The translations under genes and the position numbers were made by a program. This document shows positions 46,644 through 54,043 of a stretch of 64,000 nt of DNA, in pieces (position 1 is the stretch's first letter; every line of letters begins with the position of its first letter). The notes beneath the pieces were generated by a model. That model ran no database searches, had not been told where the DNA came from, and was given only the letters and a program-made list of their open reading frames with translations. Source of the stretch: Bradyrhizobium sp. (GTDB lineage: Bacteria; Pseudomonadota; Alphaproteobacteria; Rhizobiales; Xanthobacteraceae); NCBI RefSeq assembly GCF_004799445.1, contig NZ_SSNA01000025.1, forward strand, positions 1 through 64,000. The letters are read 5' to 3'.

Positions 46644-46751
46644 CTTGCCCCGATTTTTTCTCTAGTCACTGAAGTTTCTGTAGTCACTCAATATGTGAGC
46701 ACGAGCCGTTGAAAAAGCGGCGGCCGAAGCCGCCGCCACCCGATGAACCAT

Positions 46752-46917
46752 CTCCCCCTCTCCCCGTCTGCGGGGTCGAGACGAGCGAAGCTCGCTCTTA
46801 GAGGGTTGGGGTGAGGGGGACCCTCCACGCACTCGAACTCGCGGAAAGTCCCCTCACCCGGATTGCTCCGCAATCCGACCTCTCCCCGCAAGCGGGGCGA
46901 GGTGAACCAACTCAACG
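46752..46917. repeat. Intergenic repeat pair, inverted copy of 52696-52845
   Basis: The first 70 bp (46752-46821), with 'ctgcggggtcgagacgagcg' and 'cttagagggttggggtgagg', is almost the exact reverse complement of 52778-52845. The right part ('cccctcacccggattgct' to 'gcaagcggggcgaggtgaa') is a second related hairpin. No gene is present in the roughly 300-bp gap. Positions 46822-46850 between the halves are unrelated. Confidence 0.85.
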
Positions 46918-46939
46918 CCATCTCTCTTATTCCAACGTC

Positions 46940-48436
46940 CTACGCGGTCTTGATCCAGACCGCCTTGACGTTGAGATATTCTTCCAGGTGCTGCTTGCCG
47001 GACTCGCGGCCATAGCCGCTCATCTTGTAGCCGCCGAACGGCACCGCCGGGTCCATCGCCTGATAGCAGTTGACCCAGACCGAGCCGGCGCGAAGCGCCT
47101 TGGCGACACGGTGCGCCTTGCCGACGTCCTTAGTCCAAACGCCGCTGCCGAGGCCGAAGGTCGTGGCATTGGCGCGCTGGATCAGTTCGTCCGGATCCTT
47201 GAACGAGATCGCGGAAATGACGGGTCCGAAGATCTCCTCCTGCGCGATCCGCATATTGTCCTGGACGTTGGCGAACACCGTCGGCGGCACGAAATAGCCT
47301 TTCGACAGCGCGCCTTCGGTGAGCCGGGCGCCGCCCGCGAGCGCTTTGGCGCCTTCCTTCTGGCCGATGGCGAGATAGCCCGAGACCCGTTCGAGCTGCT
47401 GTTCCGACACCAGCGGGCCGATTTGCGTATTGGGGTCGAGGCCGTTGCCGACCTGCAGCTTTTTGCCGAATTCGGCGACGCGGCCGACGAATTCGTCATA
47501 CACCTTGTTCTCGACAAACAGCCGCGTCCCCGCGCTGCAGATCTGCCCGGAATTGGCGAACACCGCCATCGCCGCGCCCGGCACCGCCGCGTCGAGATCG
47601 GCGTCGGCAAACACGATGTCAGGCGATTTGCCGCCAAGCTCGAGCGACACCCGCTTCAGATTACCGGCCGACGCCCTGACGATCGACTGACCGGTGACGT
47701 GCGAGCCGGTGAAGGCGACCTTGTCGACGCCCGGATGCGAGGCCAGCGCCGCGCCCGCGGTCTCGCCAAATCCCGCCACCACATTGACGACGCCGGGCGG
47801 GATGCCGGCTTCCATGCAAAGTTCGCCGAGCCGCAGCGAGGTCAGCGGCGCTTCCTCCGCGGGTTTCAGGATCACCGTGCAGCCGGTGGCGATCGCAGGG
47901 CCGATTTTCCAGACGCTGGCGCCGAGCGGGCCGTTCCATGGGATGATCGCGCCGACGACCCCGACCGGCTCCTTCAGCGTGTAGGAGAAGATTTCGCCGG
48001 GCAGCGAATTCTCGATGGTCTCGCCATGCAGCGCGGTTGCCTGCCCCGCGTAGTAACGCAGCATGCCGAGCACGCGCAGCTTGTTGCCGCGGGTACGGCT
48101 GATCGGCGCGCCCATGTCGAGCGTGTCGAGCTGCGAAAGCTCCTCGAAATTCTTCTCCACGAGATCGGCGAGTTTCAACAACAGGTTCTGCCGCTCGAAC
48201 GGCTTCACCTTGCTCCACGGCCCCTCGAAGGCACGGCGCGCGGCGGCCACCGCGCGATTGATGTCCTCGGCGTCGCCCTCGGCGACGGTCGCCAGCAATT
48301 CGCCGGTCGCCGGGTTGTGGGTCTCGAAGCGTTTGCCGGATGCAGCGTCGACCCATTGGCCGTCGATCAGCATCTTCTTGTAGGAACCATCCGCATAAGG
48401 ATGGCGCGTGATCGGAATTGCCTGCGTTACAGCCAT
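46940..48436 (-). CDS. NAD(P)-dependent aldehyde dehydrogenase
   Basis: 498-aa aldehyde dehydrogenase of the ALDH1/2 type. Cofactor region 'GVVGAIIPWNGPLGASVWKI', 'VAFTGSHVTGQSI', general base Glu in 'RVSLELGGKSPDIVFADAD', nucleophile Cys in 'FANSGQICSAGTRLFV' and the C-terminal 'VNCYQAMDPAVPFGGYKMSG'. It oxidises an aldehyde to the acid in the cytoplasm. Divergent from the SDR gene, and both may serve the same alcohol/aldehyde pathway (inference). Confidence 0.95.
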   Translation of the reverse strand: MAVTQAIPITRHPYADGSYKKMLIDGQWVDAASGKRFETHNPATGELLATVAEGDAEDINRAVAAARRAFEGPWSKVKPFERQNLLLKLADLVEKNFEELSQLDTLDMGAPISRTRGNKLRVLGMLRYYAGQATALHGETIENSLPGEIFSYTLKEPVGVVGAIIPWNGPLGASVWKIGPAIATGCTVILKPAEEAPLTSLRLGELCMEAGIPPGVVNVVAGFGETAGAALASHPGVDKVAFTGSHVTGQSIVRASAGNLKRVSLELGGKSPDIVFADADLDAAVPGAAMAVFANSGQICSAGTRLFVENKVYDEFVGRVAEFGKKLQVGNGLDPNTQIGPLVSEQQLERVSGYLAIGQKEGAKALAGGARLTEGALSKGYFVPPTVFANVQDNMRIAQEEIFGPVISAISFKDPDELIQRANATTFGLGSGVWTKDVGKAHRVAKALRAGSVWVNCYQAMDPAVPFGGYKMSGYGRESGKQHLEEYLNVKAVWIKTA

Positions 48437-48636
48437 GTCTGCACTCCCCTGGGGTCGACCGATGTTTCTGCGATCGTTATATGTAAAATTCTATAGCGGC
48501 GGTGTGAAACCGTAAAGCCGGTGAGCAGTTTGTAGAGAGCGCCGAATGAGGAGCTCCCATGCCATTTCGTGCATGCTTCATGCGCGGCTTTGGCATAGTG
48601 ATGCGCCAAGCTGATCCCATCCGGGAGGAACCTTCC

Positions 48637-49488
48637 GTGCCCCATCCAGCCATGTCTCCCAACCACGTTGCCGTCGTCACCGGCGGCGCCTCTGGCCTCG
48701 GCCTTGCCGCCGCGAAAACATTTGCGCGTCTCGGCATGAAAGTCTGTATCGCCGATCTCGGCGGCGATCGACTCAAGGCGGCCGAAACCGCACTATCATC
48801 GGCAGCGCCCGGCGGCGCCGCCAATATCCTGGCGCGCGCAATCGATGTCAGCCGCGTCGAGGAGGTGACGGAACTGGAAGGCGCCGTGCGAGAACGGTTC
48901 GGCGGCACCGACATTCTGATGAACAACGCCGGCATCCAGCCGGGCAGCGCGATGTTCGGTCCGCTGCCGAACTGGCAGCGTATTCTCGGCGTCAACCTCT
49001 GGGGCGTGATCCATGGTTCGCAGGTTTTTGCGCCTCGCATGATCGAGCGCGGGCGGCCGGGCCTCATCATCAACACCGGCTCCAAGCAAGGCATCACAAC
49101 CCCGCCCGGCGATCCCGCCTATAATGTTTCCAAGGCAGGCGTGAAGGCCTTTACCGAGGCCCTGCAACACGAGTTGCGCAACGCTGCCGGCGGCAAGATC
49201 AGCGCGCATCTGTTCATCCCCGGATTTGTCTTCACCGGTCTCACCGCAAAGGGCCGCTCCGAAAAACCGGCCGCGGCGTGGACGCCGGAACAGACCGTCG
49301 ACTTCATGATCGAGCGGGTAACGCGCGGCGACTTTTACATTCTCTGTCCGGACAACGATGTGCCGCGACAGCTGGACGAGCGCCGCATTCTCTGGGCCGC
49401 CGGCGACATCGTCGAAAACCGCCCCGCGCTGTCGCGCTGGCACCCGGACTACGCCGAAGCGTTCGCCGCGTTTGTGAAGGGTGCTTAG
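48637..49488 (+). CDS. Short-chain dehydrogenase/reductase
   Basis: 283-aa classical SDR. NAD(P) motif 'AVVTGGASGLGLAAAKTFA', 'DILMNNAGIQPGS' and the catalytic Tyr-x-x-x-Lys variant in 'GDPAYNVSKAGVKAFTEAL', with an upstream Ser in 'LIINTGSKQG'. The start GTG 48637 is chosen for its RBS 'atccgggaggaacc'; ATG 48652 ('MSPNHVAV') is possible and the ORF-track start (48559) is too long. Substrate unknown. Confidence 0.88.
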   Translation: MPHPAMSPNHVAVVTGGASGLGLAAAKTFARLGMKVCIADLGGDRLKAAETALSSAAPGGAANILARAIDVSRVEEVTELEGAVRERFGGTDILMNNAGIQPGSAMFGPLPNWQRILGVNLWGVIHGSQVFAPRMIERGRPGLIINTGSKQGITTPPGDPAYNVSKAGVKAFTEALQHELRNAAGGKISAHLFIPGFVFTGLTAKGRSEKPAAAWTPEQTVDFMIERVTRGDFYILCPDNDVPRQLDERRILWAAGDIVENRPALSRWHPDYAEAFAAFVKGA

Positions 49489-52695: not shown

Positions 52696-52845
52696 CACCT
52701 CTCCCCGCCTGCTGGGAGAGGTCGATCACGAAGTGATCGGGTGAGGGGGACTATCCGCGAGTCCGGCTTTGACGTGAGTCCCCCTCACCCCAACCCTCTA
52801 AGAGCGAGCTTCGCTCGTCTCGACCCCGCAAGCGGGGAGAGGGAG
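52696..52845. repeat. Intergenic repeat pair, inverted copy of 46752-46917
   Basis: The left half contains 'cacctctccccgcctgctgg' and 'gatcacgaagtgatc' hairpins. The right half (52778-52845) is the reverse complement of 46752-46821 with a two-base length difference. It fills the gap between the convergent MetE-like gene and the 126-aa gene. No ORF. Confidence 0.85.
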
Positions 52846-52889
52846 CAGCGACTGATCGTCGCTGCACCTCAACCTAAATTCATCCCGCT

Positions 52890-53270
52890 TTAGTGCGCCC
52901 TCAACGTCACCGTCGTCGCAGGCTGCGCCACCAGCGCCTCGCCGAGTTCGCTCTGCTGCTGGCGCGGGATGGAGAAGCAGACGCTGAACCCGTCGACCGT
53001 TTTCAGCGTCACCATTCCCTGGGCGGGATCGGATGACTGCTCGACCACCCATGACTCCAGCGGGTAGGCATAGCGCAGGCTGCGATCGCCGAAGCGCGTC
53101 TGCAGGGCCTTGTCGATCAGTCCCGGCAGCGTCATGGCGAGCGCGCCAACCGCGTTCAGGGATAACCGGATGGTCGCGGGATTGCCGGTGGCATCGACAA
53201 AACCAAGCGAAATAGCGCCGCCATCGGCGGCGACTTCGCAGGTGGTCAGCGACTGGGTGTCGATCTCCAT
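52890..53270 (-). CDS. Hypothetical protein, 126 aa, divergent from DUF2478 gene
   Basis: Unrecognised. ATG 53270 ('MEIDTQSLTTCEVA') was chosen; the upstream extension of the ORF runs through the Mo-box-like operator and is unlikely to be coding. No signal peptide. The protein looks beta-rich with 'GAISLGFVDATGNPATIRLS' and 'QGMVTLKTVDGFSVCFSI'. Its start lies 16 bp from the first Mo-box-like palindrome, so it is a candidate member of a molybdate regulon (inference). Confidence 0.7.
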   Translation of the reverse strand: MEIDTQSLTTCEVAADGGAISLGFVDATGNPATIRLSLNAVGALAMTLPGLIDKALQTRFGDRSLRYAYPLESWVVEQSSDPAQGMVTLKTVDGFSVCFSIPRQQQSELGEALVAQPATTVTLRAH

Positions 53271-53285
53271 CGTCAGGCTCCGGTA

Positions 53286-53313
53286 GTCGTTATATTCAAT
53301 TGAATATATCGCA
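53286..53313. promoter_or_regulatory. Mo-box-like operator 1 (ModE/Mop-type)
   Basis: GTCGTTATATT-CAATTG-AATATATCGCA. The Mo-box consensus recalled from Rhodobacter is ATCGCTATATA-N6-TATATAACGAT. The left arm matches 8 of 11 positions and the right arm 7 of 11, with the exact 6-bp spacer. The site sits immediately upstream of the 126-aa gene and in the divergent promoter to the DUF2478 gene. Confidence 0.55.
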
Positions 53314-53383
53314 ATGGCGAACGAATCGTCCAGCCCGGTTTTTGGCCGGTCTGCCCTGCTGCCGCTGTGGCCTCGCATCCGAA

Positions 53384-53411
53384 AGCGTGATATACGATTG
53401 GATATAGTGTC
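53384..53411. promoter_or_regulatory. Mo-box-like operator 2 (weaker)
   Basis: AGCGTGATATA-CGATTG-GATATAGTGTC. The left arm matches 8 of 11 positions of the Mo-box half site and the right arm 6 of 11, again with a 6-bp spacer. It is 65 bp upstream of the DUF2478 start. Weaker than site 1, but its presence in the same 200-bp promoter with the same spacing supports both. Confidence 0.4.
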
Positions 53412-53476
53412 GATGGCGCCGCCGTGGTCACCTCCGACTTCCAGGCGGCGAGGCTAACGGTCAACGGAAGCGTCCG

Positions 53477-54043
53477 ATGTTTGACTCACAATGCGACCTT
53501 GCGGCCCTGGTCTACGAAGGGGATCAGGACCCCGACGAAATGCTGCGCGGCTTTGCGTCCGACCTCAAGGCCGGCGGCTATCGCGTGGCAGGCCTGGTGC
53601 AAATCGGGCACCATTGCGTCGATGCGCCAAGACTGTCCGCGATGCTGGTCGATACCGGCGAGGAGCTACAACTGTTTCAGGATCTCGGCGCCTGCGCGAC
53701 CGGCTGCAGGCTGGACGTCGGCCAGTTGCTCGATGCCGGCGCCCGGGTCGCAAGCGCCATCGATCAGGGCGCCGACCTCGTGATCATCAACCGGTTCGGA
53801 CGGCAGGAGCGCGAGGGCAAAGGCCTCTCGTTTCTGGTCGAGCGCGCCTTGAGCGCGGATATTCCAGTCGTCATCGCGGTGCCCAGCCACCGTTTTGCGG
53901 ACTGGATCAGGTTCGCCGATGGCATGAGCGTGAGGCTGCGCTGCGACCGCAAGATATTGGACGCGTGGTGGAATTCGGTAATCGCGCGAAATGCAGGCCT
54001 TGCCCGACCGGATCACCGCACCGTCCGCGAAGTTATCAAGTAA
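53477..54043 (+). CDS. DUF2478 family protein
   Basis: 188-aa cytoplasmic protein of the DUF2478 family: 'LAALVYEGDQDPDEMLRGFA', 'GYRVAGLVQIG', 'CRLDVGQLLDAGARVA', 'DLVIINRFGRQEREGKGL' and 'IPVVIAVPSHRFADWIRFADG'. The family has a P-loop-NTPase-like fold and in proteobacteria is often found next to molybdate transport genes. Two Mo-box-like palindromes upstream fit with molybdenum-dependent control. No mod genes are in the window. ATG 53477 is the clear start. Confidence 0.85.
   Translation: MFDSQCDLAALVYEGDQDPDEMLRGFASDLKAGGYRVAGLVQIGHHCVDAPRLSAMLVDTGEELQLFQDLGACATGCRLDVGQLLDAGARVASAIDQGADLVIINRFGRQEREGKGLSFLVERALSADIPVVIAVPSHRFADWIRFADGMSVRLRCDRKILDAWWNSVIARNAGLARPDHRTVREVIK

Follow-up and report, generated by a model that had tools for sequence, protein, structure and literature searches.

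What do two Mo-box-like palindromes control in a Bradyrhizobium genome, and to what end? The intergenic stretch 53271-53476 of the window (the whole 64,000-nucleotide stretch of DNA that was analysed) lies between the start codon of a 126-aa protein (53270, minus strand) and the start of a DUF2478 gene (53477, plus strand). It holds GTCGTTATATT-CAATTG-AATATATCGCA at 53286-53313 and AGCGTGATATA-CGATTG-GATATAGTGTC at 53384-53411. The first-pass annotation had described both palindromes as Mo-box-like with the half-site spacing of ModE, and both are present where it had placed them. A third site, absent from that annotation, was found in the same window. The sites and the genes beside them are:

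46940-48436, minus strand: NAD(P)-type aldehyde dehydrogenase (ALDH), 498 aa, of a Mo-independent family (PF00171)
48475-48498: Mo-box 3, core CGTTATAT-N8-CTATAGCG, between the ALDH and SDR genes
48559-49488, plus strand: short-chain dehydrogenase/reductase (SDR; NCBIfam SDR models), divergent from the ALDH gene, with Mo-box 3 in common
52890-53270, minus strand: 126-aa protein of no known family, rare and Mo-box-associated
53288-53311: Mo-box 1, core CGTTATAT-N8-ATATATCG, with the predicted -10 of the 126-aa gene inside it
53386-53409: Mo-box 2, core CGTGATAT-N8-ATATAGTG, 67 bp upstream of the DUF2478 gene
53477-54043, plus strand: DUF2478 protein, 188 aa (PF10649, E 4e-47)

The pattern taken for the Mo-box was CGNTATAT-N8-ATATANCG, that is, CG-N-TATAT-N8-ATATA-N-CG. 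Throughout the genome (6.25 Mb, 241 contigs) it has two perfect matches, one match with a single mismatch and four with two mismatches. Mo-box 1 is one of the two perfect matches, the other being on contig C95; Mo-box 3 is the sole single-mismatch match and Mo-box 2 one of the four with two mismatches. As inverted repeats, Mo-boxes 1, 3 and 2 have 0, 1 and 2 mismatches, respectively. Five matches with up to three mismatches lie in the window against 0.6 expected, a number reached in 0 of 100 shuffles. A position matrix trained on 88 sites from other genera gave 39.1 bits to Mo-box 1, 26.2 to Mo-box 3 and 23.2 to Mo-box 2, the next-best position of the window outside the three Mo-boxes scoring 10.0 bits. 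The E. coli ModE consensus (printed in PMC2700814) ranks the same three sites at the top of all window positions; consensus and matrix are two descriptions, neither of them derived from this genome. By pattern, consensus and matrix scans alike, the sites score far above random. Could they still be chance palindromes in AT-rich intergenic DNA? Mo-box 2 taken alone has two mismatches, as does a handful of other positions genome-wide, and by itself it is borderline, becoming convincing next to Mo-box 1. However, a random sequence of 6.25 Mb should yield about 0.3 sites at 23.2 bits or more (Mo-box 2) and none at the score of Mo-box 3 or above, and the conservation of the sites in relatives, in register with promoters, contradicts chance as well, which makes this explanation extremely improbable. 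The matches are confirmed as real, they are among the best of the genome and they are predicted ModE sites. The two-mismatch sites at C118:1335 and C145:26200 have matrix scores close to background and were discarded; a site at C6:6972 scores 18.1 bits and lies inside an open frame.

The genome does encode a ModE homologue. Its sole convincing ModE-type gene (C95:14479-14862) specifies a 127-aa protein matching TIGR00637 (E 4.8e-25, 89.9 bits, short of the curated cut-off of 98.5); intact short ModE relatives in the family score similarly, likewise below the NCBI cut-off. The alignment covers positions 18-94 of 263 in the full-length ModE model, that is, the DNA-binding domain only, and the protein is devoid of the TOBE/MopI molybdate-binding domain, which places it in the ModE(S) class. 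Since the regulator has no molybdate-binding domain, it may respond to the molybdenum cofactor and not to molybdate; work on Agrobacterium reportedly points to the cofactor as the signal of the short ModE.

Predicted sites and regulator go together across the family. In a census of 150 genomes (ModE-positive meaning a match at E <= 1e-15, sites counted at no more than one mismatch), 168 Mo-boxes were found in 88 ModE-positive genomes versus 7 in 62 ModE-negative ones (Fisher p 5e-14; the census and ModE association statistics ignore kinship and the genomes are related, so that the p-value overstates independence). The reversed-pattern control gave 20 and 9, respectively (Fisher p 0.5). Mo-boxes thus track the presence of ModE, and regulation by ModE is well supported by the comparison. 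A different regulator that recognises a similar AT-rich sequence could also be the one that binds the palindromes, the link to ModE being indirect, as seven ModE-negative genomes still have one site apiece. These seven leftover sites are, however, close to the nine of the reversed control pattern. Moreover, the sites fit the published ModE consensus, they co-occur with ModE and not with its absence, and in relatives the modE, modA and mop genes have Mo-boxes of their own. Another regulator is therefore very unlikely. Paired Mo-boxes, as at this divergent promoter, recur in relatives L038, L084, L089, L117 and L146. Those relatives of the genome that carry names belong to Bradyrhizobium, Rhodopseudomonas and Tardiphaga.

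Which genes do the boxes serve? The 126-aa protein has no match in Pfam or NCBIfam and is rare, with homologues in 3 of 385 genomes of the class. At least 12 columns of its alignment show no variation within the family, so that the frame is a genuine coding one. A Mo-box at no more than two mismatches precedes all 14 intact homologues examined: 12 from loci of the family whose upstream sequence was complete, and two that belong to other families. Seven of the loci came from a search with DUF2478 that took no account of Mo-boxes, and the alignment of the 126-aa protein was the sole query for the two in other families. In one of these two (L304) the gene stands beside an ALDH; in the other (L305) it stands beside modE and modA, with modA having its own Mo-box. 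A truncated copy (L043) had no Mo-box in the stretch searched. The proposal of the first-pass annotation that this protein is a member of the molybdenum regulon has therefore gained strong comparative evidence.

The DUF2478 assignment is secure (160.2 bits against a gathering score of 22.3). Sufficient upstream sequence was available for 120 DUF2478 genes of the family. A Mo-box at two mismatches or fewer lies within 350 bp upstream of 30 of them, compared with 7 for the reversed pattern; at one mismatch or fewer the figures are 14 and 0. The modE gene lies within 3 kb of 30 of the 120, and 22 of these 30 have a Mo-box. A Mo-linked neighbour (modE, the 126-aa gene or an ALDH) coincides with a Mo-box (23/35 with such a neighbour versus 7/85 for the rest, p 2.5e-10). 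The association of DUF2478 with molybdate genes, which had been asserted from general knowledge of proteobacteria, holds in this family.

The ALDH, overlooked by the first-pass annotation, is a more informative target than the pair considered there. It matches PF00171 over its full length (E 9e-181, profile positions 1-461 of 461), and its best NCBIfam matches are phenylacetaldehyde and betaine-aldehyde dehydrogenases, all below cut-off; it is one of seven ALDH genes in the genome. Mo-box 3 is 38 bp upstream of the gene, and the actual start of the divergent SDR may lie further downstream than 48559. The divergent ALDH/SDR arrangement with a Mo-box is also found in L200 and L264. In one Bradyrhizobium-like clade a Mo-box (two mismatches or fewer) stands at the ALDH promoter in 22 of 23 ModE-positive genomes, among them the present one, and in 1 of 4 ModE-negative ones; the site is conserved despite free variation at its centre. 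In about 20 genomes of this clade modE itself is arranged tail-to-tail with this ALDH. In the sister clade, ModE-positive genomes have the site in 0 of 13 at two mismatches or fewer and in 8 of 13 at three, and among nine ModE-negative genomes one has it at two mismatches and none at three. Since the site is weak in these ModE-positive genomes, regulation of the ALDH is not universal. An ALDH gene lies directly downstream of at least 12 of about 66 Mo-boxes of the unbiased census, other ALDH subfamilies included. In a literature search covering few subscription journals, we found neither a function for DUF2478 nor a description of Mo-boxes at ALDH genes.

How would ModE(S) act at these genes? 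Consensus matching gave sigma-70-like promoters upstream of two of them:

48488-48516, minus strand: predicted sigma-70-like promoter of the ALDH gene, TTTACG-N17-TAGAAT, with the -10 inside Mo-box 3
53303-53332, minus strand: predicted sigma-70-like promoter of the 126-aa gene, TGGACG-N18-TATATT, with the -10 inside Mo-box 1

These are the sole such promoters found in the two upstream regions. The predicted -10 falls inside the box in 11 of 26 ALDH promoters and 8 of 12 promoters of the 126-aa gene, mostly with the same -35/-10 pair. As a regulator bound over the -10 would block RNA polymerase, repression is likelier than activation at these promoters.

We propose, with moderate confidence, that under shortage of molybdenum or its cofactor a ModE(S) regulon derepresses one or more Mo-independent ALDHs together with DUF2478 and the 126-aa protein, as a Mo-sparing substitution. 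The short ModE of contig C95 would bind the three Mo-boxes and, while molybdenum or cofactor is plentiful, block the promoters of the ALDH, the 126-aa protein and DUF2478, and probably that of the divergent SDR too. Shortage of the cofactor would lift this repression, and the ALDH could then replace in aldehyde oxidation the Mo-dependent hydroxylases, which would no longer be matured. Such a substitution would be analogous to that of Mo-nitrogenase by a Mo-free one. The Mo-hydroxylase family includes aldehyde oxidoreductases, and about 22 Mo-hydroxylase genes are present in this genome, so that derepression of an NAD-type ALDH is plausible as Mo sparing; the overlap of this ALDH with the substrate of a Mo-enzyme is putative. 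The comparison shows where the sites are, that they are conserved and occur together with ModE, which genes are their targets and that they overlap predicted -10 elements; we infer the binding of ModE(S), repression as opposed to activation, the cofactor as signal and the substitution itself.

The boxes could also be ModE(S) sites of a regulon that serves molybdenum acquisition and Mo-hydroxylase maturation and not replacement. In that case the ALDH, DUF2478 and the 126-aa protein would act together with Mo-enzymes, for instance in aldehyde removal or cofactor insertion, and for some of the genes ModE(S) may be an activator, as ModE is at some E. coli promoters. Relatives have Mo-boxes at coxE-like, xdhC-like, modA, mop, porin and TonB-receptor genes, and modE is near DUF2478 in 30 of 120 loci, both of which fit this reading. 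Against it, repression is favoured by the -10 elements that Mo-boxes enclose at promoters of the ALDH and of the 126-aa gene, and the ALDH, of a Mo-independent family, is a recurrent target in several subfamilies. We regard acquisition and maturation as possible but rather unlikely. Still, in L184-L187 and L194 coxE-like (VWA_CoxE) and xdhC-like genes are preceded by Mo-boxes, in one case with a MoxR-type ATPase gene alongside. These Mo-hydroxylase maturation genes would belong to the same predicted regulon, which would then be wider than sparing alone. Because of such boxes in some relatives, a pure sparing model fits poorly.

The classic mark of a ModE regulon, a Mo-box upstream of modABC, is absent from this genome. 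In the region of the best modA match (C3:77182-78998, equivalent to L027:7153-8998) no Mo-box was found upstream of mop or modA, the best matrix score in the stretch upstream of mop being -11.7. This was unexpected, and not for want of a regulator or of sites, as ModE(S) is encoded in the genome and other regions hold good boxes. As the mop-modABC region has no Mo-box, the scores of the window could not be compared with those of modABC. Molybdate uptake may here be either constitutive or otherwise controlled; Mo-boxes do stand at mop or modA in L146 and L305.

Regulation by ModE(S) in Agrobacterium tumefaciens and Sinorhizobium meliloti is reportedly the subject of Hoffmann et al. 2016 (Mol Microbiol 101:809; cited in PMC7294313), with modABC as the target studied. 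These alphaproteobacteria are said to resemble the present case in having a short ModE without molybdate-binding domain and paired Mo-boxes in the target promoter. Here, in contrast, modABC has no box and the predicted targets are the ALDH/SDR pair, DUF2478 and the new 126-aa protein. In Rhodobacter capsulatus, MopA and MopB repress anfA of the Fe-nitrogenase (PMC6925177, PMC7294313). The likeness lies in a ModE-type repressor that silences a Mo-free alternative enzyme while molybdenum is present, but here the alternative enzyme is an aldehyde dehydrogenase, the regulator has no molybdate-binding domain and repression is a prediction. The E. coli ModE regulon and the predicted one of Geobacter share with our sites the consensus ATCGCTATATA-N6-TATATAACGAT, with sites gradually lost where ModE was lost (PMC2700814). 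They differ in having full-length ModE with MopI domains and other target genes, whereas the ModE found here is short.

If Mo sparing is correct, bacteria rich in Mo-hydroxylases would hold Mo-independent ALDHs in reserve under ModE(S) control, and the logic of Mo-free nitrogenase substitution would extend to ordinary carbon metabolism. It would also give a functional context to DUF2478, a common family of unknown function, and to a rare unannotated one, as well as a simple system for studying how molybdenum status is perceived by ModE(S), which has no molybdate-binding domain. It is tempting, if improbable, to go further and assign to the 126-aa protein, to DUF2478 or to both the role of the missing partner that senses the cofactor for ModE(S), the latter having no domain for molybdate. 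A small Mo-box-controlled protein encoded beside modE could report the status of the cofactor to it, and its own control by a Mo-box would close a feedback loop. Were this so, the old problem of molybdenum sensing by ModE(S) would be tied to a testable protein. The structure model of DUF2478 is good (pLDDT 87.1), with no structural match in the PDB at E <= 0.001 and weak sequence resemblance to NTPase_1 and PAPS reductase. For the 126-aa protein no solved relative was found and the fold model is of low confidence (pLDDT 49.6); the secondary structure predicted for 52893-53270, likewise at low model confidence, resembles two strand-strand-strand-helix units.

Some boxes stand at genes for outer-membrane proteins. 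The second perfect Mo-box of this genome lies about 210 bp downstream of the short modE and 60 bp upstream of a gene for a 496-aa porin-like outer-membrane protein (C95:14479-16650, equivalent to L026:6480-8647). No Pfam family was found for this protein, which appears porin-like from its signal peptide and sequence and is a possible Mo-regulated porin for molybdate. Perfect Mo-boxes also occur upstream of TonB-dependent receptor genes in two relatives (L192:1501-1524 and L210:1501-1524), and these receptors are candidates for the outer-membrane uptake of molybdate or a molybdophore.

The three Mo-boxes mark a conserved gene cluster, in which the window differs from its relatives in the place of modE. 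In L264 the gene order is 126-aa, SDR, Mo-box, ALDH, modE and an old-yellow-enzyme-like gene. The window has the same order with two differences: no modE separates the ALDH from the old-yellow-enzyme-like gene, and three extra genes lie between the SDR and the 126-aa gene. It seems that modE was lost from the window and retained on another contig. Where relatives have modE, the window has a palindromic repeat (46644-46939), and a near reverse complement of this repeat is found at about 52700-52850.
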